Assembly (NCBI GenBank): GCA_903870305.1
Contig: CAIQCM010000100.1
Coordinates: forward strand, 1 to 17,866
From: an uncultured bacterium
GTDB lineage: Bacteria; Patescibacteriota; Patescibacteriia; CAIQCM01
Length of the DNA stretch: 17,866 nucleotides
Reading direction: 5' to 3'
A program made the translations under genes and the position numbers. The notes below the pieces were generated by a model, which saw only the letters and a program-made list of their open reading frames with translations, did no database searches and was not told where the DNA came from. Below, piece after piece: positions 6,297 through 17,281 of this stretch (within the stretch, counting starts at the first letter, position 1; the number at the start of each line of letters is the position of its first letter).

Positions 6297-6325
6297 TTGA
6301 AATATTGCTGAAAATGTGGTATAGT
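6297..6325 (+). promoter_or_regulatory. Sigma-70-type promoter
   Basis: TTGAAA (6297-6302) and TATAGT (6320-6325) are separated by exactly 17 bp, close to the sigma-70 consensus. Initiation is expected near 6332. No credible + strand ORF follows for over 1.3 kb, so it drives a non-coding transcript or a long leader. A strong terminator at 6434-6470 favours the former. Confidence 0.65.
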
Positions 6326-6415
6326 AGACATGTAAGTTCTTTAAAGGGCAAAAACTAGCCCAATAGAGCGAAAAATAAAACAAAAACCAAAACGAAAACC
6401 TGTCTAGGGATAATT

Positions 6416-6435
6416 ATATCCACATATTATCCACA
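6416..6435 (+). promoter_or_regulatory. Two DnaA-box-like 9-mers in direct repeat
   Basis: TTATCCACA (6427-6435) is a perfect match to the classical DnaA box. ATATCCACA (6416-6424) differs by one base. Their starts are 11 bp apart, about one helical turn. No dnaA gene or AT-rich unwinding region is visible nearby, so an origin is not claimed. Confidence 0.25.
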
Positions 6436-6470
6436 TGGCTCTCCGTTTTGGGGAGCCATGTTTGTTTTTT
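6434..6470 (+). terminator. Strong intrinsic terminator
   Basis: An 11-bp stem pairs CATGGCTCTCC (6434-6444) with GGGGAGCCATG (6450-6460), with one T·G pair and a GTTTT loop. TTTGTTTTTT (6461-6470) follows directly. This is a textbook Rho-independent terminator on the + strand. Confidence 0.8.
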
Positions 6471-6567
6471 ATGAAACATAAAGCATGAAACATGGAACAC
6501 GAAACACGAAGCATTACCACGGAAGTTTCTGGTCGATTGTTTCATGATTCATGTTTCATGCTTCATC
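6471..6567. repeat. Iterated ATGAAACAT-type words with a 14-bp inverted repeat
   Basis: Variants of ATGAAACAT / GCATGAAACATG / AACACGAAACACG run from 6471 to about 6515. The inverse words lie at about 6538-6566. AAGCATGAAACATG (6481-6494) is perfectly complementary to CATGTTTCATGCTT (6550-6563), giving a 14-bp stem around a ~55-nt spacer. It belongs to the same loose family as the other junction repeats here. The window's last bases (GTTCATGCTTC) resemble its right arm. Confidence 0.5.
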
Positions 6568-6615
6568 CCAACCTATTACAACGAATGAAATAACTTCATT
6601 AACAAAACAATTTAG

Positions 6616-6789
6616 AAAAAAGTTCTGCCCCGAACTTTTGCGCCAGAGTTCATTGTCCCTGGTTCAGGTCACATAACCCCAGATGTGTGCCATGAACCAG
6701 GGGGAAATTGCCCCCTATAACTCTGATCAGAATGGAACACCTGCCCCTTAAACGCTAACAACCGCACCACGGTTGATTTCGGCGTTTTT
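6616..6789 (+). ncRNA. Structured RNA module A (first of two tandem modules)
   Basis: It begins with hairpin AAAAGTTC-TGCCCC-GAACTTTT (6618-6639). A multi-helix unit follows: CAGAGTT (6644-6650) pairs with AACTCTG (6719-6725). Inside lie CCCTGGTTCA (6657-6666) with TGAACCAGGG (6693-6702) and GGGGG-AAATTG-CCCCC (6700-6715), which compete for the same G-run. An apparently unpaired TGCCCC (6742-6747) precedes a hairpin with a T5 tail. No credible ORF exists. A minus-strand terminator reading of the 6618-6639 hairpin is possible, so the strand is less certain here than for module B. Confidence 0.45.
6750..6789 (+). terminator. Terminator-like hairpin between the two RNA modules
   Basis: AAACGC (6750-6755) pairs with GCGTTT (6782-6787), and AACCG (6760-6764) with CGGTT (6770-6774), across an internal loop. 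A run of five T (6785-6789) overlaps the end of the stem. It is weaker than the other terminators here. Confidence 0.35.
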
Positions 6790-6810
6790 GGGACAATTCA
6801 ATACAACTAT

Positions 6811-6985
6811 TTGCTACATACTGTCTTCGTAGAGTTTATCCCTGGTTTTAGACCCCTCATCTGCTAAGGGGGTGTCTATGACCGGGGGGAAGCTAAGCCC
6901 CCCGATACGATAAGCGCAGTATGACAAAGAGTGCCCCGAATAAAACGACAGCCACATGCTCTTAAGTGGCCGTCGTTTTTGTTGT
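6811..6985 (+). ncRNA. Structured RNA module B (second tandem module)
   Basis: The architecture repeats module A with different base pairs. CATACTG (6817-6823) closes with CAGTATG (6917-6923). A long hairpin starting CCCTGGTTTTAGACCCC (6840-6856) pairs with 6868-6887, and GGGGGG-AAGCTAAG-CCCCCC (6884-6903) follows. An unpaired TGCCCCGAA (6932-6940) then precedes the terminator. T·G pairs in the long hairpin would be A·C mismatches on the other strand, which supports + transcription. I recognise no known riboswitch or ribozyme consensus. Confidence 0.5.
6942..6985 (+). terminator. Intrinsic terminator of module B
   Basis: AAAACGACAGCCAC (6942-6955) pairs with GTGGCCGTCGTTTT (6966-6979), 14 positions with a single A·C mismatch and a 10-nt loop. 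It continues TTTTTGTTGTTTT. The complementary strand also ends in a T-rich tract, so it may work in both directions. Confidence 0.7.
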
Positions 6986-7016
6986 TTTCAGAAATTCGAA
7001 AATTTCTGAAAACAAC
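6981..7016. repeat. 16-bp perfect AT-rich hairpin
   Basis: GTTGTTTTCAGAAATT (6981-6996) is perfectly complementary to AATTTCTGAAAACAAC (7001-7016) around a CGAA tetraloop. It begins just after the module B terminator stem. It may be a second termination signal, an RNase site, or a DNA-level cruciform between transcription units. Confidence 0.6.
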
Positions 7017-7030
7017 TTAAGAAAAATTTT

Positions 7031-7497
7031 GTTCTCGATCTCTTGTCTCTTTCGCCTCGGGGCGGTGAAAGCGACCAGAGATCGGAGACAAAACATGGGT
7101 GGCGCGTTAGGCCGGGGGGCTTAATGCGCCAAACATGCAAAGCCCCGCACTGAGAGTCGGGTTCACCGCCAGTGAACAAGACAAAGACGGCTCGGTGCGG
7201 GGCCGGTTGATGCGCATCGCTTTCTCTCACCATAGCTTCCCCTAAGAGCGGGAGTCGAATGGGAGACGAAACGGTGTGCGTCAGCCCCTGCGCCTTTGGT
7301 CGCAATCTGGCTAGCGGTGCGGGAAGTAACGGCCGATACGGCTGATCTCCGAAAAAGTTCTTTCTCATACCGTTTCTCAGTATCGCATTCGGTGCGGCGA
7401 TAACGAGAGACCTCCGCAAAACGGCGGAGCAACCCGGCCCCTCTCTGAATACTGTTTGTCCCGTTGGGGACTGCTGAGCAAAGAGGGGTCGGGGAAA
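7031..7497 (+). ncRNA. Large structured RNA or 5' leader before the giant adhesin gene
   Basis: About 470 nt are almost wholly foldable. Stems in order: CTTTC-GCC/GGT-GAAAG with loop TCGGGGC (7049-7071); CATG plus a 13-bp stem (7094-7137); a 13-bp stem 7142-7154/7191-7203 enclosing GTTCAC-CGCCA-GTGAAC; palindrome GATGCGCATC (~7209); CCTGCGCC/GGTGCGGG (~7287-7323); GTTTCTC..GAGAGAC enclosing TATCGC..GCGATA (7372-7411); CTCCG/CGGAG (~7412-7429); and a 12-bp stem 7433-7444/7482-7493 enclosing GTCCC-GTTG-GGGAC. Non-Watson-Crick pairs in these stems are consistently G·T on the + strand, so the RNA is + sense. No terminator or clear promoter bounds it; it may be the leader of the downstream gene. 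Confidence 0.5.
7049..7071 (+). repeat. TCGGGGC-loop hairpin, upstream copy
   Basis: CTTTCGCC (7049-7056), loop TCGGGGC (7057-7063), GGTGAAAG (7064-7071). It shares loop core and closing CC/GG pairs with the three hairpins at 16950-17146, but has a different outer stem and lacks the leading A of the loop. Confidence 0.5.
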
Positions 7498-7500
7498 TAC

Positions 7501-7545
7501 TATGAACGATGAAGTATGAATGATGAACGATGAACAATTCAATTC
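7501..7545. repeat. Iterated ATGAACG/ATGAATG words
   Basis: A run of ATGAACG, ATGAAGT, ATGAATG, ATGAACG, ATGAACA words lies between the structured segment and the adhesin gene. It matches the 1881-1920 run in type. A hairpin CATGCGA..TCGCATG (~7546-7579) and GCTGCC-GTTCA-GGCGGC (~7605-7620) follow, then an A-rich stretch up to the start codon at 7664. Confidence 0.4.
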
Positions 7546-7663
7546 ATGCGAGCGAAGCTAATTGGTTTCATTCGCATGCATTAGTGGATTGGTGTCGCGT
7601 CGCTGCCGTTCAGGCGGCCAACACAAAAACGAAAAATAAAAGTCAAAAACAAAAGAAAACAAA

Positions 7664-7858
7664 ATGTTTAAACGGCTTACAAATAAAACGTTGATGCAAG
7701 CGCTCCTCCGCGCGTGCTTCGTCGTTTTGTTTGTCGTTGCCACTGTCGCGGGTTTTGCGGCGCAAAATGCCAAAGCCGCCGCCGGCATCCCGCTCATTAT
7801 TAACTACCAGGCACGGGTGACTAACGCCTCCGGTACCCCCCATTACCGCGGCCACTAA
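7664..7858 (+). CDS. Detached N-terminus (signal peptide) of the giant adhesin
   Basis: ATG 7664 starts a signal peptide (MFKRLTNKTL, then ACFVVLFVVATVAGFAA, cleavage near NAKAAA). It runs into IPLIINYQARVTNASGTP, the usual opening of large CPR beta-repeat surface proteins. That family continues with a T-x-x-T-x-M-R-F block, and exactly this (ITAATNMRFVIWDS) is encoded one frame over from 7842. The frames meet in a run of six C (7836-7841), so dropping one C restores a single reading frame. In the given frame the product ends after 64 residues at TAA 7856-7858 and would be useless alone. It may be a homopolymer sequencing error or a genuine off-state. The start lies after an A-rich leader with no clear Shine-Dalgarno. 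Confidence 0.75.
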   Translation: MFKRLTNKTLMQALLRACFVVLFVVATVAGFAAQNAKAAAGIPLIINYQARVTNASGTPHYRGH

Positions 7859-7859
7859 C

Positions 7860-10800
7860 ATGCGCTTCGTCATCTGGGATTCGCTCTCCGGCGGCAGTTG
7901 TGTCTGGTCCGGCTGGGGCACCGGCGGCTCGAACGGTTGCAGCTCGCCTAATGGCAGCCAGGTCTCCGTCACTCCAGTTAACGGCGTCTTCTCGCTCGCC
8001 CTTGGCGACACGACCGTTTCTTCGCAGGTCGCGCTTCAGAACACCATTTTCAACGACGATAGCCGCTACTTGGAAATTCAGATGTATAACGGCGGAAGCT
8101 GGGAAACCTTGTCCCCGCGCAAACGCATCCTTGCCGCGCCGTATGCGATGAACTCGAATATGCTCGCCGGTCTCTCGACCTCGGCTTCCGGCGGCTCGGT
8201 TGCCTTTGTGCCGGTCACCGACTCCTCCGGCAAGCTCACGCTCACGGCCGGCACGACCGTTTCCGGCGCTTTGATCAGTTTGAATGACACTTCGAACTTC
8301 AATACCCAGATCAACACCGGCACCTCGACCGGCACGGTCACGATCGGCAACACCGGGTACGCCGGCGCGGTCGGCGTTCTTTCGCATGCCGCCCTCACCT
8401 TGACCGGCGGCGCAGCTTCGAGCTGGGGAACATCGGTGGGCAACTTAAACCTCTATGCCGCCGGCTCCGGAACGGGATCGGTCATAATCGGTAGCGGCGT
8501 CGGATCATCGACGCCAGACCTGTTCATTCTGGATAACAAGAACGACAACGCCACCGACCCATCGGGCTCGGCGGGTGCGATGTACTACAACTCAAACGCC
8601 GGCGTCTTCCGCTGCTACCAAGGCGCGGGTTGGACCAACTGTATCGGTTCGGGCGGCGGCGCGCGCCTTGATCAGGTCGCCGCGGCTACGACCACTGCGA
8701 CCATAGCGAACGCCAATAACGCGATCACTTGGAACTGGGGCACGCTTACCAATCAATTTGGTTTGACTTTGGGCGGCGGGACGGCGATGACGACCGGTTC
8801 GACTCTGCGCATCAATGCCTCGACCTTTGTTCATACAATCGCGGAAACCGGCGAAGCGGCCGAAGTTATTTTTGCCGATAACTCGACCAACAATAATGTC
8901 AGCACCTCGGTCACCAATGGTATCCATGTTGGTTCGTCGATCAGTACTTCCGGTCAAGGTCTTAAATCGGTTAACGCTTTTACGGCCAACGCGCCGACTT
9001 TAACCGGTTGCTCGGGCGGTGCCTGCGCTTGGAGCGGCTTTAACGTTAATACGCAAGCCACCGGCGCGCTTTCTACAATCACGCAAAACGGTTTAAATAT
9101 CGCCGGCGCCGGCATTTCGGCCGGTACCTTGAATGGCATTAATATCGGCGCCATCACCGGTTCGACCGGCGTTGAAAATGCCATTGCCATCGGCGGGGGT
9201 TGGGATACTTCGATCACGACGCTTGCAAACGCCGACCTGAATATTTATCCGAATGGTTCCGGCAGCACGGTTATTAAGACCGATGCTGATTCGTTTTTCA
9301 AAGTAACGGCCGTTGGCGTGCCGGGTCAGGACATGATCCAGATCACGAACGCCGGCCAACCGGTCGTGGCGCCGGGCGTTTCGGGCATTCAGCTTACTTA
9401 CGTGGGCGGCGCGGCGACGGTTGAGGCCTCGGCCGAGCGCATCGACATAACCGGCGGCACCTCGGCCGGCGCCGGCGCCATTTGGAATGGTTTGCGCATC
9501 GTGCAGGGCACGATCACGCCGGGCACGACGGTGAGTGATATCAAATTGGAGACCTACGCCCTATCGCAAAGCACCACCGATACGACCGTGATCAACGGTT
9601 TGAACATGCCGACTTCGGGCGCGCTTGCGCTAAACGCCGCCGGATCACTCACTTGGAACGGCGCCAACATTCAGATGCCGAACATCTCGCAAACGAGCGG
9701 CGCGATCGTTACGAGCGGCGTGGCGGTTACCACCGGCACGATCAATTTCGGCGGAACGCAGAACGGATTGAATATCATTGCCGCCGGCGTTGCCTATGGC
9801 ACGTTGAACGGCATTAACATCGGCGCCATCTCCAGCGGATTTGGCGCGGAAACCGCGCTCAATATTGGCGCCGGCTGGGACAAGGGGATTGCGATCGCGA
9901 CTGCCGATAATACCGGTTCGGGGTTGGTAATTACGACCGCCGGCGGCGGCACACCGACCGCCTTTAGCGTCGGCCCGAATGGAACCGTCAACCCGGCCTT
10001 TAACATCGACACGACGAATGCGGCCAACCTTGTTACCAACCCGAGTTTTGAGGTCAATACCGCCGGCTGGGTGGCTAAAGGAACCAACCCGACGATCGCG
10101 CGCGTGACGACGCAAGCGATCGCCGGCGGCGCTTCGCTCCTTGTCAACAACACCGCCGGTTCGCCGGCTGCGGGCGATGGTGTTAAGTACAACTATCTTT
10201 TTACCGGCGGGAACACTTACGCTTTGAGTTTTTATGCCAAGCTCGATCCCACCAGTAAGCCCTTCGCCTCGGCGACCGCACCATACAACGATTTTGCCGC
10301 CGGTTATTACAACGGCACCGCTGACACCGACTGCGCCTTAAGTCCCAACCAAGACCAGCAAGCGGTTTCCGCGACGCAATGGAACCACTATAGCTGTACC
10401 TTCACCCCGGGCTCGATCAACCAGTACTTCTATATCCGCCAGACCGACAATATGGCCGGTCATATGTATTTTATTGACGGCGTGCAGTTGGAAGTTGCCA
10501 GCCAGCCGACCTCTTACCACGAAAGCACGGTTTCCTTTGGAGCATCGATGCTCAAAGTTCAGGGTCTTAACAACTGCAACCGCCTTACCACCGACGCGAC
10601 CGGCACGGTCATTTGCGGCAACGGACTGGTGAATAATATTCCGCTCGTTATCGGCTTTGGCCACTCGGTCATGCGCGCGCTCTATGCGGCGACGAACGGC
10701 GCCACGAACGGTTACAACCGCTACTTGGCGCGTCTCGCCAATATGCTCCACGCGCAAGAAATAAACCATGCTGTTGACGGCTCGCAATCGTTCCTCGCCA

Positions 10801-13800
10801 ACAACGTCGGCGTGGGCGGCGGTTATGCGTACATGCTGCAAAATACCGTTCCGCCGCGGAATCAAGCGTTTGCGCCGGGACAAACCGGTCCGACCGCGCC
10901 ATATTTGGGATCGAATAATTTAGGCGTTTTGCAATACGGCATTAACGACGTATATCTCCTCACCGCGAACCGCGGTGCCGGCACGGCGTATGATTCGGCC
11001 GGTTGCAGCGCTTACAACTATTTCTCCTGCACCTTGGAGGACTCAAAAGAAGCCATGCGCACGATGATCGCGCGCGAACAGGCCTCGGCCGTTTTTGAAG
11101 AAGACACCAACAACCTCTCCCCTACAGCTTCGCCGACCGCGGTCTTCTACTCCGGGACCAACTCGCGCGTTCTTACGACCGCCCAGAACTCCGGCGCCGG
11201 CTATCAGCAATTCACGACCGCCGGTTCGGCCACCGTCTGTTTGCCACTCGACCTGAACGCCACCGGCGGCACCGTTGACATCGGCATTCTCGCCGACACG
11301 TCGGGGAACGGCGCCACCCACACGATCAGCTTGGACGGCACGACGGTCGCGACCGTTAACACCGTCGGATTATTGAACATGTCGGGCGCGGCCGCCACGA
11401 CACCGACCAACTTGAGCATTGTCCGCCGTATTAAGGTTCCGCAGGGGAACGCCAGCGGCACGACCGGCTGTTTGGCCGCCGGCACTCAGCACAAAATTGT
11501 CGACAATATTACCGCTGTCACCGGCAGTACCGGCTTTGACTACTACCAAATTGAAGCGACCACGCCGGTACCGACCCTAGTCATTAACACGGCGCGCCAG
11601 ACCAACTACAGCTACCAGGGGAACAGGATCAACGACAACGACGTTAACTTCGAGAATAATGCGATCTCCGACGTGATCAGCGAGTTCCCGTCGACCGTTA
11701 TGTCGGTCGACGAAGACTCGGCGCTTGGCAAGAATCCGGACAACTGGTCAACCGACTTGGTGCACCCCAACGACAAGGGTCACGCCCTTATCGCCGAAGC
11801 CGCTTACCAAACCCTGGAGAGTATGCCCGGGAATGCCCGGCAAACGACTTTGGGTTTGGCCGCCGGCAACACGACGCAAACCATTGAAACCGTAAATTAC
11901 GGCATCTACAATACAGATTACCAACCGACGCTGCTCATTAACACAACGCCGACGAACCCCGGCAACATAGCCAACAGCATTACCAATCCGGGTTTTGAAT
12001 TTGACTCTTCCGGGTGGGGCGTTTTCATTGGATCCATAAATCGCGTCGCCACCCAAAATTATACCGGCGCCGGTTCGCTTCAGGTTGTAACCAATCCGGT
12101 GGCGCCCTATTCCGGCCCTTACTGGAATTGGGCGTTTCCCGACACCAACCCTTTCACTTTTTCTTTCTACGCCAAGCTTGACGCCGCCAGTCCGGCATTT
12201 ACCACTCTTGCCGCCGGCTATTATGACAGCGGTTCTGCCTGGCATGCATGCTCGCTTAATTCCAATACCGTTGTCGCGACCGGCTGGACGCGCTATTACT
12301 GCACGTTTAGCACCACTTCGGGCAGCGTCTTCCCGTCAATTGTTGATTCAAGTTCGGGCGGCGGCGCGAAAACTTTTTATGTTGACGACGTGCTTTTGCA
12401 AGAAACCAGCACGCTTAACAATTGGGACGAGGGCGGCAGCATCAGCTTGGTGGGAAATGTGGTTTCCCCGGTCCAGTTCCAGAACACCAGCAACTCAACG
12501 ACCGCCTTCCAGATCAACGATGCCGCCGGCAATGTGCTCATGAGCGCCAACACGGTGACCGACAATGTATCTTTTACAACCACCGGGCTCGCGCAAACGA
12601 CGACCGCCGTTACGACCCTGAACCCGGTCTCGGTTTCCGCCACCGGCGCCATTTCGCAGACAACGAATACGGGCACGATCAATTGGCTTGGAAATTTGAT
12701 CACGACCCCCGCGACGACCATTAACGTCGCCGGCGGCACCATTTTGAACGACGGCCTAAAGATCGTTCAGGGCGCTTATAACGTGAACACGACCAACGGC
12801 GCCGCCGGCGGCATGAACGGCATTGATATTGCCGGCGGTACCATGTCGACCTTGGCCGCACAGACCGGCACAATTAGCGACATTAACTTGACGACCGCTT
12901 TGCTCGCCTCGAGTACGACCGGCATTAACAATGTTAACGGCATTTACTTGAGTTCGGCCGGCGCGCTTAGCACCGCGACGAACGCCGGCGTGGTCAACTG
13001 GGACGGCGTCATTATCAATCCGCCGGCCGCCACCGTCGGCATTATCGGCAGTACGGTCACCTCGAACGGATTTGACGTGAACGCCTCGAACCTGACCATG
13101 TCGGCGAACGGCACCGGCAATGTCTATGGCATCGATCTCGCCATGGGCACGTTAACCGCGAACGGTACCGGCGGCGTGATAGACGGCATTCTCATTGCCG
13201 GCCCGGCGATCGCCGGCACTTCGACCGCCGCCGGTACGGTGAACGATGTGGCCATGACAACCGCGATTTTGTCTCTTTCGACCGCGACCACGCAAAACAT
13301 TTATGGCTGGAACCTGAGCGCGGCGGGAAACATCACGACCACTTCGACCGGCACGATCAACTGGACCGGCAGTAACATTGTCATGCCGAACATCACGCAA
13401 GGCGCGGGCAGCACGATCGCCTCGAATGGTCTAAGTGTCACCTCGGGCACGATCACGACCGGCGGCACGATGAACGATATCAATATCGTTGGCGGAACGG
13501 CCGGCGCCGGCACAGAGAATGGCATCAACATCAATACAATAGCCAATGGCGCCGGTACCGAGAACGCGATCGCCATTGGCGGCGGCTGGGATACTTCGAT
13601 CACCACTCTTGCGAACGCCAACCTCGTGATCCAGCCGAACGGCTCGGGCAAGACAGTGTTCAATGTTGATGCCGACTCCCCGGTTTCTATTGCGGCTACC
13701 GCTGTTCCGGGCTTGGACATGCTCAACATCACCAACTCCGGTTTCCCGGCGGTTGGTGTTGGCGTGAACGCCCTCTCCATAAACTACTTCGGCGGCAATG

Positions 13801-16697
13801 CCAACGTGGAGTCCGGCGCCTTCCGCATTGACCTCACTCCGGGCGGCACGGCGGGCGCGACATGGAACGGTTTCCGCATTGTCCCGGCCTCGGTCACCCC
13901 GTCGACCACCCAGAACAATATTAAATTGGAAACCCCGATCTTTGCTCAGACGACCGCGGTTACGACCAATATTAATGGTCTTAATATCCCGACTGTCGGC
14001 GCTATTTCACAAGCGTCCAACGCCGGCACCATTAACTGGGCGGGCGTGAACATTACCACGCCGGCCGCCACTCTTAACTACGCCTTAAGCACCATCCTTA
14101 ATGATGGCATCAAGATCAGCACCGGCACCTTCGCCCAAAGCACGACCGGCACCGGCACTTCAAACGGCGTTGATATCTCGGTCGGCGCATTGACCGCCAC
14201 CGCCGCCGGCGGCACCTCGAACGGTATTTCCATCGTCGGCGGCTCGATCGTGGCCACTTCGACGGCGGCGAGTACGACCAACGGTATTGCTCTGACCACG
14301 GCCGGCTTGGCGCTTACGACCGCGACCGTGCAGACGGTTACGGGCATAAATTTGACCTCCGCCGGCGCGATCAGCACGGGCTCGACCACCGGCACGGTCA
14401 ACTGGGACGGCGTGGTCATGAATCCGCCGGCCGCCACCGTCGGCTATGTCGGCAGTACGGTCACCATGAACGGCTTTGACATCAACTCCTCGAACTTGAC
14501 CATGTCGGCGAATGGCACCGGCAACGTTTATGGCATCGACCTCGCCATAGGCACGTTAACCGCGAACGGCACGGGCGGCGTCATGGACGGCATTCTCATT
14601 ACCGGTCCGGCGATCGCCGGCGCTTCGACCGCCGCCGGTACGGTGAACGGCATAGCGATAACGACCGCGGCCTTATCGCTTTCAACCGCGACTACGCAAA
14701 ACATCTACGGCTTGAACTTGAGCGCGCCCGGGAACATCACGACCACTTCGACCGGCACGATCAACTGGCAAGGCGTGGGGATCACGATGCCGCCGATCAT
14801 GCAAACTTCGGGCACGATAAACGCAGACGGCTTGCATATCATAACCAACACCGTGACGACCGGCGGCCTTGTGCGCGCCATCAACGTCGTCGACGCGTCG
14901 AACAATTCGATCTTCGAAGTCAGAGACACGAGCACGAACGACAACAACTTCGGCGGCTTGGCCATGACCGGCGCCTTTGTGAGCCGCGATTCCTATTGGG
15001 GCGATGAGTTCTCTAATTTTAGAACCACAAACACCGTAACTTCTGTGGCTGAAGTTCGCGGCGATTATTATCCGGGCGCAGTTACGACAGCCCCGGCGCA
15101 AAACGCGGTCGGAAGCGGTGAGATCTCAACCAATGCCACTGTCGGTACAAGCGGTGTCTGCACCTTCTCAAGCGTTAACCAGATAAATGGCATAGAGCAG
15201 ATCCAGCCGACGACGGTCGGTACGACCGCTCCGGGCTCTACTTGTTTAGAATATCGATCCACCGGTACCGCCGGAACATTGTTAAACCAGTATCAAACCG
15301 GAAATTTGCCTGTTATCGTAATGAAGATCGCTCCCTCGGTAGCTGTTACCGGCAGCCAGAGATTATGGGCGGGCATTTCAGATTCTGTTGCGGCTTGGGC
15401 TACGGCGCCGGCAAACGCGGTTATGTTTTCAAACTGCAGCAATGCAACGCCGACCTGCGATAATAACTGGCACGGCATTACAAGATCGGCGTCCGGAACT
15501 GTTTCTACGGTGAATTGCGGGCTTGCGGTATTAGCCAATAAATTTGCTTACCTGCGCATTGAGGTCCGTTCGGCTACCGACATCCACTTCTTCGTTGACA
15601 ATGATGTTTCAAACGGAATTACAGAAACAGAATGCGGTACCGGTATTACCACCAACACCCCTGTCGGCACCGTCAACATGAGTATGAGCATTGAAAACCA
15701 AGTGTTGAACGCAGGTACTACGTATACTTTGCAAGTGGACTACTTCCGTTCATGGCAAGATGATTCCATTGCATCAAACGATTCAAATACCACCGTGGCA
15801 CCTGTTCAAGTTGTTTCTGCGCCGAGCGTCTTTGACGGTCGCGTGGCGCTTGCCGACCTCATGACGGCGAATGAAAATCTCGCCTACGACACGTCGGCGC
15901 ATTTGGACACGCAGGTGTTGAACGCGAGTGAGGGCGTTATTTCGCCGCTCGTTGTCGCGACGGGTTTGATCGTCGACAGCGTGAGTTCGCTTAAGGACGC
16001 AATTGCCTTTAATTCCGACATGTTCTTCTTCGGCCGGCCGTACTTTAACGCCGACACGGCCGGATTTGCGATAATTTCAAAGGGGCTGCAAGCGGTCAAA
16101 GTGTTGTTTGAAAAGGAATACTTAGATAAGCCCGTTGTGAGCGCGGCTATTTCGGTCGACCATAACGACGACCAATCCGCAGAACAGGCGCAGATCAGCA
16201 ATGCGCTAAATAGCGATATGCGCTATGTGGTTGCGGATTCTAGCACGAAGGGCTTCACGATCATGCTGAACAAGCCGGCGACGTCGGACATTCAGTTCAA
16301 CTGGTTCGCGCTCGCGGTAAAAGATGCCAAAACCTTTGCTTCGGATCCCAATGTGCAACAAACGTTCGGTTACCAAGCGCCGCCGGTAAACAGTCAAACA
16401 ACGGTCGCGCCGCCGCCCGTCCCCGCACCAACAACGCCTGACACGAACACGCCCGCGCCGGTCGCAAACGAACCCGCCCCCACCCCTCCCGTCGATCAAA
16501 CGCCAGCGGCAACGCAACCGGTTGCAACCGAACCGACCACCGACACTTCAATCCCAACCGCCGCGACCGCTTCTCCCGATATTTCAACCCCCACTGCAAC
16601 AACCGCCGCGCCTGACACGACCGCCGCGCCAATAACAACTTCAACTACCCCGGCACCGGAGCAGACGCTCGGTGCGGAGCAAGCCACCACCCCTTAA
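7860..16697 (+). CDS. Giant secreted beta-repeat adhesin with embedded SGNH hydrolase (main frame; true start 7664)
   Basis: This frame gives 2,945 residues, about 3,010 when joined to 7664. Numbers count from M at 7860. Residues 1-95 are the N-terminal beta domain ending YLEIQMYNGG, RKRILAAPYAMN. Low-complexity G/T/N-rich beta-repeats (NGI-I, TINW-G--I--P, GGT-NGI) fill most of 100-720 and 1530-2380. Residues 723-890 (NLVTNPSFEV..W) and 1372-1525 (NSITNPGFEF..W) look like CBM4/9-type carbohydrate-binding modules. Between them is an SGNH/GDSL hydrolase: GFGHSV (Ser936), GIND (Asn1029) and DLVHPND (Asp1299, His1302), with an inserted beta domain near 1090-1270. Block I reads GHS instead of GDS. 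Residues ~2381-2635 resemble a lectin jelly-roll (FFVDNDVSNG, LQVDYFRSW). A conserved-looking beta domain (~2685-2824) precedes a Pro/Thr/Ala tail (2841-2945). No LPXTG or TM anchor is present, so attachment is unknown. Adhesion to and trimming of glycans is inferred. Confidence 0.85.
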   Translation: MRFVIWDSLSGGSCVWSGWGTGGSNGCSSPNGSQVSVTPVNGVFSLALGDTTVSSQVALQNTIFNDDSRYLEIQMYNGGSWETLSPRKRILAAPYAMNSNMLAGLSTSASGGSVAFVPVTDSSGKLTLTAGTTVSGALISLNDTSNFNTQINTGTSTGTVTIGNTGYAGAVGVLSHAALTLTGGAASSWGTSVGNLNLYAAGSGTGSVIIGSGVGSSTPDLFILDNKNDNATDPSGSAGAMYYNSNAGVFRCYQGAGWTNCIGSGGGARLDQVAAATTTATIANANNAITWNWGTLTNQFGLTLGGGTAMTTGSTLRINASTFVHTIAETGEAAEVIFADNSTNNNVSTSVTNGIHVGSSISTSGQGLKSVNAFTANAPTLTGCSGGACAWSGFNVNTQATGALSTITQNGLNIAGAGISAGTLNGINIGAITGSTGVENAIAIGGGWDTSITTLANADLNIYPNGSGSTVIKTDADSFFKVTAVGVPGQDMIQITNAGQPVVAPGVSGIQLTYVGGAATVEASAERIDITGGTSAGAGAIWNGLRIVQGTITPGTTVSDIKLETYALSQSTTDTTVINGLNMPTSGALALNAAGSLTWNGANIQMPNISQTSGAIVTSGVAVTTGTINFGGTQNGLNIIAAGVAYGTLNGINIGAISSGFGAETALNIGAGWDKGIAIATADNTGSGLVITTAGGGTPTAFSVGPNGTVNPAFNIDTTNAANLVTNPSFEVNTAGWVAKGTNPTIARVTTQAIAGGASLLVNNTAGSPAAGDGVKYNYLFTGGNTYALSFYAKLDPTSKPFASATAPYNDFAAGYYNGTADTDCALSPNQDQQAVSATQWNHYSCTFTPGSINQYFYIRQTDNMAGHMYFIDGVQLEVASQPTSYHESTVSFGASMLKVQGLNNCNRLTTDATGTVICGNGLVNNIPLVIGFGHSVMRALYAATNGATNGYNRYLARLANMLHAQEINHAVDGSQSFLANNVGVGGGYAYMLQNTVPPRNQAFAPGQTGPTAPYLGSNNLGVLQYGINDVYLLTANRGAGTAYDSAGCSAYNYFSCTLEDSKEAMRTMIAREQASAVFEEDTNNLSPTASPTAVFYSGTNSRVLTTAQNSGAGYQQFTTAGSATVCLPLDLNATGGTVDIGILADTSGNGATHTISLDGTTVATVNTVGLLNMSGAAATTPTNLSIVRRIKVPQGNASGTTGCLAAGTQHKIVDNITAVTGSTGFDYYQIEATTPVPTLVINTARQTNYSYQGNRINDNDVNFENNAISDVISEFPSTVMSVDEDSALGKNPDNWSTDLVHPNDKGHALIAEAAYQTLESMPGNARQTTLGLAAGNTTQTIETVNYGIYNTDYQPTLLINTTPTNPGNIANSITNPGFEFDSSGWGVFIGSINRVATQNYTGAGSLQVVTNPVAPYSGPYWNWAFPDTNPFTFSFYAKLDAASPAFTTLAAGYYDSGSAWHACSLNSNTVVATGWTRYYCTFSTTSGSVFPSIVDSSSGGGAKTFYVDDVLLQETSTLNNWDEGGSISLVGNVVSPVQFQNTSNSTTAFQINDAAGNVLMSANTVTDNVSFTTTGLAQTTTAVTTLNPVSVSATGAISQTTNTGTINWLGNLITTPATTINVAGGTILNDGLKIVQGAYNVNTTNGAAGGMNGIDIAGGTMSTLAAQTGTISDINLTTALLASSTTGINNVNGIYLSSAGALSTATNAGVVNWDGVIINPPAATVGIIGSTVTSNGFDVNASNLTMSANGTGNVYGIDLAMGTLTANGTGGVIDGILIAGPAIAGTSTAAGTVNDVAMTTAILSLSTATTQNIYGWNLSAAGNITTTSTGTINWTGSNIVMPNITQGAGSTIASNGLSVTSGTITTGGTMNDINIVGGTAGAGTENGININTIANGAGTENAIAIGGGWDTSITTLANANLVIQPNGSGKTVFNVDADSPVSIAATAVPGLDMLNITNSGFPAVGVGVNALSINYFGGNANVESGAFRIDLTPGGTAGATWNGFRIVPASVTPSTTQNNIKLETPIFAQTTAVTTNINGLNIPTVGAISQASNAGTINWAGVNITTPAATLNYALSTILNDGIKISTGTFAQSTTGTGTSNGVDISVGALTATAAGGTSNGISIVGGSIVATSTAASTTNGIALTTAGLALTTATVQTVTGINLTSAGAISTGSTTGTVNWDGVVMNPPAATVGYVGSTVTMNGFDINSSNLTMSANGTGNVYGIDLAIGTLTANGTGGVMDGILITGPAIAGASTAAGTVNGIAITTAALSLSTATTQNIYGLNLSAPGNITTTSTGTINWQGVGITMPPIMQTSGTINADGLHIITNTVTTGGLVRAINVVDASNNSIFEVRDTSTNDNNFGGLAMTGAFVSRDSYWGDEFSNFRTTNTVTSVAEVRGDYYPGAVTTAPAQNAVGSGEISTNATVGTSGVCTFSSVNQINGIEQIQPTTVGTTAPGSTCLEYRSTGTAGTLLNQYQTGNLPVIVMKIAPSVAVTGSQRLWAGISDSVAAWATAPANAVMFSNCSNATPTCDNNWHGITRSASGTVSTVNCGLAVLANKFAYLRIEVRSATDIHFFVDNDVSNGITETECGTGITTNTPVGTVNMSMSIENQVLNAGTTYTLQVDYFRSWQDDSIASNDSNTTVAPVQVVSAPSVFDGRVALADLMTANENLAYDTSAHLDTQVLNASEGVISPLVVATGLIVDSVSSLKDAIAFNSDMFFFGRPYFNADTAGFAIISKGLQAVKVLFEKEYLDKPVVSAAISVDHNDDQSAEQAQISNALNSDMRYVVADSSTKGFTIMLNKPATSDIQFNWFALAVKDAKTFASDPNVQQTFGYQAPPVNSQTTVAPPPVPAPTTPDTNTPAPVANEPAPTPPVDQTPAATQPVATEPTTDTSIPTAATASPDISTPTATTAAPDTTAAPITTSTTPAPEQTLGAEQATTP
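12988..13420 (+). repeat. Intragenic duplication, copy 1
   Basis: About 145 codons from VNWDGVIINPPAATVG to about NITTTSTGTINW recur at 14392-14815 with only scattered substitutions, 1,404 nt (468 codons) downstream. Several shared stretches also match at the nucleotide level, so the duplication is recent relative to the other repeats. Confidence 0.75.
14392..14815 (+). repeat. Intragenic duplication, copy 2
   Basis: Second copy of the unit, with VNWDGVVMNPPAATVG, SNLTMSANGTGNVYGIDLA and STATTQNIYGLNLS retained. It lies just before the C-terminal non-repeat domains. Confidence 0.75.
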
Positions 16698-16698
16698 C

Positions 16699-17235
16699 TC
16701 GCATCTCCACCCACCACATTCTTAAAACAAAAAAGAATGTGGGGGGCGGGGATGCGACGGAAGGAAGGATGAACTCATGATCCTTTAGCAAGATCATGAC
16801 GCGGAAGAGCTCAGTGCCGGTTTACGGTTCTTTCGGCCAAAAGGCGTTTTGCCTTCGGCCACACAACACGCCACCGCACCACGTTGGGTGCGGGGCGAGC
16901 GGAACTGATCGAAAAGGCCTTATAACCCTGTTCGATCAGAACTCCGCACGGTTCATGCCAACACCATCGGGGCGGTGAAGGCATGAGCCGATCATATGCC
17001 GTCGGGTCGAGCGATCCTCGGTATCGATGCACAAGTTTTTCCAACCATCGGGGCGGTTGGGAGAACAAAAAGTGCGTTGATACCGGGGCATACGACCCGG
17101 TATCAACGCAAAAGTTCCAAAGACCATCGGGGCGGTCGGCGGAACTAAAAATGCGTCGATATCGGGCAAGCCACGCACCAGAACAAAGTTCGGTGCGGTG
17201 CAAGCCGACTCGACCCGGCGGCACGACTTCACACC
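16699..17235 (+). ncRNA. Large structured RNA or 3' UTR with a three-fold ATCGGGGC hairpin
   Basis: It begins two bases after the adhesin stop codon with a ~25-position hairpin (TCGCATC 16699-16705 / GATGCGA 16751-16757, inner CCACATTCTT/AAGAATGTGG). Then come TCATGATC/GATCATGA (~16776-16800), a GGCC-bounded hairpin with AAGGC/GCCTT (~16839-16864), CCGCACC/GGTGCGG (~16875-16892), and CTGATCGAA/TTCGATCAG inside GCGGA/TCCGC (~16899-16947). The three ATCGGGGC hairpins with a possible four-way junction (16950-17166) follow, then GCACC-A-GAAC-AAA-GTTC-GGTGC (17175-17196). Non-Watson-Crick pairs are mostly G·T on the + strand. No T-run follows the first hairpin, so read-through from the adhesin gene is plausible. 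I see no protein gene and do not recognise an RNA family. Confidence 0.55.
16950..17166 (+). repeat. Three hairpins with identical ATCGGGGC loops and covarying stems
   Basis: Hairpin 1 (16950-16989): GGTTCATGCC-AA-CACC, loop, GGTG-AA-GGCATGAGCC. Hairpin 2 (17035-17066): GTT-TTT-CCAACC, loop, GGTTGG-GAG-AAC. Hairpin 3 (17113-17146): AGTTCC-AAA-GACC, loop, GGTC-GGC-GGAACT. The loop and the ACC/GGT neck are constant. The next pair is C-G, A-T and G-C in turn, and the outer stems differ but stay paired. Hairpins 2 and 3 flank a perfect 14-bp stem (17074-17087/17096-17109), and 17019-17030 can pair with 17153-17164 to close a four-way junction. Confidence 0.75.
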
Positions 17236-17245
17236 TTCGCCTGAT

Positions 17246-17281
17246 TTGTTAATAAGAAAATTGTAGGGTAAAATTACCCTA
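17246..17281 (+). promoter_or_regulatory. Promoter with overlapping palindromic operator-like site
   Basis: TTGTTA (17246-17251) and TAAAAT (17269-17274) are spaced by 17 bp. The palindrome TAGGGTAAAATTACCCTA (17264-17281, 8-bp arms around AA) covers the -10 element, so a dimeric regulator bound there would block initiation. The 157-codon gene begins 42 bp further on. Confidence 0.55.

Follow-up and report, generated by a model that had tools for sequence, protein, structure and literature searches.

Matched hairpin loops in two structured blocks flanking a giant surface-protein gene of a Patescibacteriota genome suggest pairing of the ends of one message

In bacteria, RNAs such as CsrB, RsmY and RsmZ each repeat one hairpin loop several times along the molecule. 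OLE, ROOL and GOLLD are large and dense bacterial RNAs in which kissing loops are found to matter (PMC12286853). Pairing between the two ends of one message is exemplified by the icaR mRNA of Staphylococcus aureus, where, according to PMC3868564, the 3' UTR motif UCCCCUG binds a G-rich part of the 5' UTR of the same gene; this pairing covers the Shine-Dalgarno site, by which ribosomes are blocked and RNase III is invited. In our study, the window (the whole stretch of DNA analysed, 17,866 nucleotides) has been found to carry one densely structured block directly before and another directly after a giant surface-protein gene, and the repeated hairpin loops of the 3' block have their complement in the 5' block.

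The genome that includes the window as its contig C100 (G000) amounts to 947,774 bases on 160 contigs, and it was compared with the sole genome of the same genus among the 95 genomes of the set of relatives (G001, the sister genome). It holds surface-protein-like genes with WxL-binding, fn3 and similar Pfam matches, the last of which is the giant ORF, which has a carbohydrate-binding domain and matches GDSL weakly. The true start of this gene, with a signal-peptide-like segment, is probably the ATG at 7664. Its frame is shifted by one near 7836-7841, at a short C run; both sides of the shift match the G001 protein at 83% and the G001 genes are open there, and the shift may reflect either faulty sequencing or a true break. 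Of 285 class genomes, 96 contain the start of the giant protein. In genome G011 (contig C3, 15643-22435) the giant-gene homologue begins about 4.8 kb downstream of a 16S gene on the same strand, perhaps directly after an rRNA operon, and a 16S gene sought in G000 and G001 was not found. Further, GTTCTTT at 6336 has what we take to be a resemblance to boxA; antitermination of the boxA kind was rejected for this site, as none of five rRNA leaders of class relatives has a match within 700 nt.

A scan of 177 segments of 200 nt along the contig for stability against shuffled sequences (z) confined all values below -3.5 to two regions, with nine such segments between 6301 and 7600 and six between 16601 and 17300. 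The features of the resulting leader and tail blocks are collected in Table 1. Very stable hairpin clusters, with z of about -9 to -10, were also observed elsewhere in G000 on L075 (contig C97, 4950-5450) and L073 (contig C136, 3601-3800). In the sister genome, L061 (contig C40, 1-1200) holds a gene with a Ro60 vWA domain (PF25045, E 1.3e-10), behind which long hairpins extend over about 500 nt (690-1200). Y RNAs are the ligands of bacterial Ro proteins, and the hairpins after this gene are a candidate Y-RNA-like element.

Table 1. Features of the leader, the giant gene and the tail in the window, with the leaders of the sister genome
Feature	Position	Strand	Basis or remark
Promoter-like site TTGAAA-17-TATAGT	6297..6325	+	consensus scan; conserved in both G001 leaders
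Structured 5' leader block, 1.3 kb	about 6332..7663	+	scanned segments with z < -3.5; homologous leaders in G001
Terminator-like hairpin early in leader	about 6433..6471	+	scan; hairpin kept in both G001 leaders
Acceptor GCCCCGAA	6627..6634	+	UGCCCC forms a hairpin loop, with GAA part of the stem
Leader unit 1, CCCTGGTT hairpin with loop ACCCCAGA	6640..6790	+	fold/alignment
Leader unit 2, diverged copy of unit 1	6812..6978	+	basis of model R1
Acceptor GCCCCGAA at 3' flank of unit 2	6933..6940	+	homologue of GCCCTGAA in G001 leader a
Leader hairpin h3, loop UCGGGGC at 7057-7063	7036..7084	+	G001 leader a has AUCUGGAC here
Giant surface-protein gene	7664..16697	+	ORF called from 7860, i.e. 7860-16697
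Structured 3' tail block	16699..17224	+	stability against shuffles; G001 homologue
Tail stem P1	16699..16757	+	fold
Tail stem P2	16776..16798	+	alignment with G001
Hairpin 1	16950..16989	+	loop AUCGGGGC at 16966-16973
Closing stem P7	16997..17223 (16997-17011 with 17209-17223)	+	identical in G001
Four-way junction	17019..17164	+	outer stem 17019-17031/17152-17164, inner stem 17073-17087/17096-17110
Hairpin 2	17037..17066	+	loop AUCGGGGC at 17047-17054
Hairpin 3	17114..17146	+	loop AUCGGGGC at 17126-17133
G001 leader a	L054 8101-9284		before giant gene A
G001 leader b	L054 14254-15054, continued on L055		after gene A tail, before giant gene B

The tail block of 0.53 kb starts directly after the stop codon of the giant gene and has the three ATCGGGGC hairpins in its 3' half. 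The stretch 16690-17235 folds at -285.9 kcal/mol in comparison to -181.6 +/- 6.4 kcal/mol for 100 shuffles (z -16.4), and its reverse strand has a z of -12.4. A sequence-only reading of the same DNA had described here three hairpins with a shared loop and neck, and our analysis bears this out, since the 14-mer ACCATCGGGGCGGT lies at 16963, 17044 and 17123 and has no other copy on either strand of the genome. The pair next to the neck of the ATCGGGGC hairpin is C-G, A-T and G-C in hairpins 1, 2 and 3, just as had been read. A tandem duplication (69 nt, 77% identity, 79 apart) gave rise to hairpins 2 and 3, because of which their resemblance is not independent, and hairpin 1 has only the 14-mer and its near neighbours in common with them. 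The earlier claim of a structured RNA with compensatory stem changes is thus upheld by the stability of the block and by a compensated stem in the sister genome, but not by the likeness of hairpins 2 and 3. Within the tail block, the hairpins at 17171-17206 and 16874-16902 are of the GCACCAGAACAAAGTTCGGTGCGG kind. The former resembles a hairpin that is multi-copy in other genomes: G066 and G029 each have it at several places, and for G027 and G028 a single place is listed; the latter resembles a hairpin at 761-790 of contig C40 in the sister genome.

The homologous tail of G001 was first reached through a weak DNA match (E 0.047). It follows immediately upon the homologous giant gene, spans about 370 nt and has a z of -7.1. 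P7 is identical between the two genomes in 14 of 14 pairs, and in the alignment register of P2 two of six pairs are changed on both sides and four are unchanged. The G001 tail has a single arm where G000 has the duplicated two, and the end of this arm reads CUAGGG-UUCAGGGC-CCCUGG as against CCAACC-AUCGGGGC-GGUUGG in hairpin 2. All six of these pairs remain paired, three being changed on both sides, one on one side and two unchanged, and the 8-nt loop of the same pattern therefore sits on a compensatorily changed stem. The search for homologues has in this way yielded a conserved-pattern loop on a compensated stem, though in one other genome only. The counterpart of hairpin 1 keeps its stem and has a different loop, and for stem P8 the G001 count is 2 of 12 pairs by direct comparison and 6 of 6 with a shifted register. 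The counts leave aside tail stem P6, whose register is not fixed. Consensus folding found compensated pairs in the 5' part of the tail (5 of 29) and in leader unit 1 (5 of 49); the count of zero for leader unit 2 arose because its outer stems failed to align, and the outer stem of unit 2 aligned by hand pairs at 7/7 in G000, 10/10 in G001 leader a and 5/7 in leader b.

The start of the leader at 6332 was taken from the promoter-like site. One promoter-like and one terminator-like site were found, for each of which 1.9 are expected in shuffles, and therefore these matches alone mean little. The leader contains two diverged copies of a unit bearing the CCCTGGTT hairpin. Its matched stretches are 89-93% identical with G001 leader b and 71-90% identical with leader a, and the order of leader, gene and tail is the same in G001 as in the window. 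R2, a model of the 5' part of the tail, was also used to look for a tail of gene B in G001 and found none; contig C17 ends inside this gene and the genome is 73% complete. The leader of the window also carries one arm of a dispersed palindrome at 7552-7642, with similar arms on contigs C34 and C157 of G000 and C37, C64 and C93 of G001, mostly as divergent pairs about 80 bases apart. A ATGAAACATG-type palindrome at 6478-6566 has relatives on contigs C65 and C103 of G000, and its absence from the homologous place of G001 leader b fits an insertion.

The main evidence comes from the match between the tail loops and the leader. When the whole leader of the window was scanned with the tail loop AUCGGGGC, the best sites were those at 6627 and 6933 (-14.3 kcal/mol), which precede the probable start codon by about 1030 and 720 nt. 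The G001 tail loop has its best site of leader a at 8694 (-13.5 kcal/mol), the homologue of 6933, and its best on the leader b part of L054 reaches -9.0 kcal/mol; by these modelled energies, the leader of its own gene suits the loop better than the paralogous leader next to it. From G000 to G001, GCCCCGAA becomes GCCCUGAA at the site and AUCGGGGC becomes UUCAGGGC in the loop, and at these homologous sites loop and site pair at 7 of 8 positions in G000 and 8 of 8 in G001. Among the 252 possible double substitutions of the window loop, just the observed one pairs 8/8 with the new site, and five fit at least seven positions. This co-variation, which comprises two positions in one comparison, suggests joint change and is not proof of it, the whole comparison covering two genomes, three leaders and two tails. 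In the model ensemble the three tail loops are unpaired with a probability of 0.95-1.0 (0.80-1.0 for G001), the site at 8694 has an openness of 0.42-0.82, and the site at 6933 is open in GCCCC (0.74-1.0) and mostly paired in GAA (0.11-0.15). The acceptor at 6933 is proposed as the partner of the tail loops. The array is then the 3' half of a two-part arrangement, and its 5' half at about 6332-7663, with the loop complements, lies outside the coordinates given for the array in the sequence-only reading.

The pattern U-C-N-G-G-R-C is common to seven donor hairpins on different stems in both genomes. Donors were defined as hairpin loops of the form WUCNGGRC and acceptors as the reverse complement GYCCNGAW. 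The acceptor motif lies at 6627 and 6933 of the window leader, 8439 and 8694 of leader a and 14470 and 14773 of leader b, with 0.19 to 0.35 expected per leader piece; it is absent from both tails, and the second piece of leader b holds neither motif. Lone motifs are not rare, since the other 15.3 kb of the window have five donor and two acceptor matches and three other contigs of 11-20 kb have the motifs 2 to 6 times each. In the folds of leader a, the loop AUCUGGAC lies on three hairpins with unrelated stems, and its complement GUCCAGA is present twice, once as a hairpin loop and once with AGUCCA in the loop and the following GA in the stem. The loops of unit 1 and h3 within the leaders also change jointly, with CCCC facing GGGG in G000 and G001 leader b and GUCCAGA facing UCUGGAC in leader a; their own pairs have energies of -8.4 to -11.9 kcal/mol and the cross pairs -3.3 and -5.4 kcal/mol.

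For leader a, none of 1000 within-loop shuffles reached three complementary pairs (at least 6 nt) or three identical pairs (at least 7 nt). As controls, 222 stretches of 1200 nt were taken (28 regions lying upstream of homologous genes plus 194 pieces from 12 contigs, both strands), which are mostly coding and less structured than the leader and tail blocks. At least three identical-loop pairs were present in none of the 222, at least three complementary pairs (at least 7 nt) likewise in none, at least one identical pair in 16 and at least one complementary pair in 6. By the same kind of count the window tail has three identical-loop pairs, two of them involving the tandem duplication, and the window leader and the G001 tail have none. 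When the leader and tail of the window are taken together, complementary pairs of at least 5 nt exceed the shuffles (0.001, or 0.004 with each loop counted once), and those of at least 6 nt are not beyond them (0.173). Loop complementarity is not beyond chance in the G000 leader alone (shuffle fractions 0.085 at 5 nt or more and 1.0 at 6 nt or more) and not clearly beyond it in the partial G001 leader b (0.061).

The reading which we tentatively favour, and which could well prove wrong, is that leader and tail of one mRNA pair via their matched loops, thereby tethering or packing its ends. The count for P2 leaves the standing of this reading unchanged, because that depends on the loops. The two blocks would be the two UTRs of one message, a 1.3-kb 5' leader and a long 3' UTR with the array. 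A consensus scan found no promoter-like site between the gene and the tail, the one site found being at 17246 beyond the tail, and therefore read-through from the gene would be the simplest origin of the tail. The WUCNGGRC donor loops would pair with GYCCNGAW acceptors elsewhere in the same transcript; the tail donors would reach the leader acceptor at 6933 (or 6627) across about 9 kb, and this would join or pack the two ends of messages some 11 kb long in the window and some 6 kb long for G001 gene A. Counting against this reading are the distance, the small set of genomes, the 7-of-8 match and the mostly paired GAA in G000, the frequency of lone motifs, the chance-level loop complementarity of the G000 leader alone and the different loop of hairpin 1 in G001. 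In leader a, a further set of donors and acceptors may fold the leader on itself. The sequences show structure, position, conservation in two genomes, and complementarity together with its co-variation; a single transcript, pairing in the cell and a function are what we infer. The simplest role for pairing of this kind would be to tether or pack the ends, and this would likely protect the long message or provide a compact scaffold on which it is handled near the membrane.

A bolder extension, which is possible and held with clearly less confidence, is a genus-wide loop code in which each giant-gene message has its own letters, re-lettered jointly in paralogues, so that the ends of a 6- to 11-kb message are tied in cis and cross-pairing with neighbouring paralogous messages is avoided. 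If true, this would be an RNA system for joining or packing ends with built-in orthogonality. A title-level literature search on structured or noncoding RNA of Patescibacteria/CPR, UTRs, riboswitches, giant surface genes and groundwater genomes, mostly outside subscription papers and bioRxiv, returned no precedent of this form; in the excerpted part of PMC11665869, riboswitches feature as a tool only.

The main rival to end pairing holds that leader and tail are separate structured ncRNAs, the leader made from its own promoter and the tail cut from the message, with loops which fold or oligomerise them and are unrelated to joining mRNA ends. We regard it as unlikely, though it deserves serious weight: the size and structure density of the blocks would suit it, as would the terminator-like hairpin early in the leader, and G001 leader a holds both loop partners within itself, in the manner of large ornate RNAs held together by kissing loops (PMC12286853). 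What speaks for one message is that the tail loop and the leader site covary across blocks on either side of the gene; the terminator T-run, moreover, is weaker in G001. Nor do the blocks resemble an Rfam family, as no family reaches its cut-off over the window, in agreement with the earlier description of the array as apparently undescribed, and lax searches with the window tail and the G001 tail locus and with the leader region gave lists of models that all score far under their cut-offs.

It is rather improbable that the blocks are mostly accumulated palindromic DNA without RNA function, their loops having spread by duplication or by copying between hairpins. Dispersed palindromes are indeed present in both blocks, from which it follows that some of the folding may be unrelated to the loop system, and hairpins 2 and 3 are a tandem duplication. 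Other hairpin clusters exist as well, with z below -6.5 listed for 5 of 713 sampled segments in G000 and 4 of 240 in G001. The strand preference is modest when segments of 120 nt are considered (the + strand more stable in 89 of 141), but at the level of whole blocks the + strand is more stable in six of six. The conservation of leader blocks at 89-93% between species, the occurrence of one loop on unrelated stems alongside its complement, and the tail 14-mer, which is not dispersed, also argue against this explanation.

Protein-binding sites of the CsrB/RsmZ type are an improbable account of the repeated loops. Several hairpins with one loop in one RNA, the GGA within AUCUGGAC and weak matches to RsmY (17.5 and 20.1 bits, cut-off 57) would be in keeping with it, but GGA loops occur only as AUCUGGAC of G001 leader a, and the three copies of AUCGGGGC in the window and the UUCAGGGC of the G001 tail are without GGA. 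Further, the loops change jointly with their complement, which protein binding does not need. The suggestion that a protein or RNA ligand is bound several times survives in its RNA form, the putative partner lying in the leader, and the protein form is less fitting.

Regarding the junction in the tail, a perfect stem between hairpins 2 and 3 had been noted and is present as a perfect 15-bp inverted repeat. The four-way junction can be closed as claimed, its outer stem pairing 13/13 with two G-T and its inner stem 13/13 with all pairs Watson-Crick. Of the alternative stems proposed for the two arms, that of arm 1 holds (13/13, two G-T) and that of arm 2 pairs 12/13 with an A-C mismatch. The stretch 17017-17168 has -82.7 kcal/mol as four-way junction and -77.7 kcal/mol as two-arm fold, and the junction accommodates the changes since the duplication better than two arms do. 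A two-state switch between these folds, which had been thought of similar quality, is highly improbable: both can be drawn with long stems, but the junction is favoured by 5 kcal/mol, the mismatch falls in arm 2 as against an intact inner junction stem, and the sister tail has a single arm.

Searches with R1, a model of leader unit 2, and with R2 show how far the arrangement extends; both large searches used strict filters, by which weak matches are lost. R1 matched three of 380 class genomes, namely G000, G001 and one weak match (E 0.076). R2 matched G000 and G001, and in a draw of 379 phylum genomes, to which G001 did not belong, it matched seven, of which the six besides G000 score 17-19 bits and are taken as chance hairpins. 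Nothing was found in viral contigs, and the DNA upstream of the giant gene at 28 loci outside the genus has no such leader. A z of -3 or below is reached by 6 of 7 upstream segments at gene A of G001, by 4 of 7 in the window, and outside the genus by at most 3 of up to 7 (L106). In the samples searched, the system is restricted to the genus, and it is either an invention of the genus or has relatives beyond the models or the sample.

If pairing of the ends through matched loops is true, a genome of about 1 Mb spends almost 2 kb of structured RNA on one gene, and the ends of its message are paired by an addressable code. Pairing between bacterial UTRs, so far exemplified by one short regulatory motif, would then extend to a large architecture. 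Nature would offer sets of orthogonal loop pairs which can be tested through simple swaps, and a first handle would be gained on how ultra-small bacteria manage giant surface-protein messages.

In comparison with the known systems, a likeness to REP-like palindromes is seen in the 17171-17206 hairpin with its relatives in other genomes, whereas the ATCGGGGC hairpins are confined to three places here. Unlike CsrB, RsmY and RsmZ, the window loop has no GGA and has a covarying complement, and the RsmY score is far below its cut-off. The dense fold and the loop-loop matches are shared with OLE, ROOL and GOLLD (PMC12286853), but the blocks here flank one protein gene and have no Rfam match. With icaR (PMC3868564) the likeness is in the proposed pairing of about 7-8 nt, of the CCCC/GGGG kind, which would also join the 3' and the 5' side; the blocks lie directly before and after the gene, as two UTRs of one message would. 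Unlike in icaR, the site here lies about 720 nt before the start codon and leaves the ribosome-binding site uncovered, because of which ribosome blocking in the style of icaR is unlikely; moreover, the loops here belong to repeated hairpins, and the leader of 1.3 kb and the tail of 0.53 kb are both structured.
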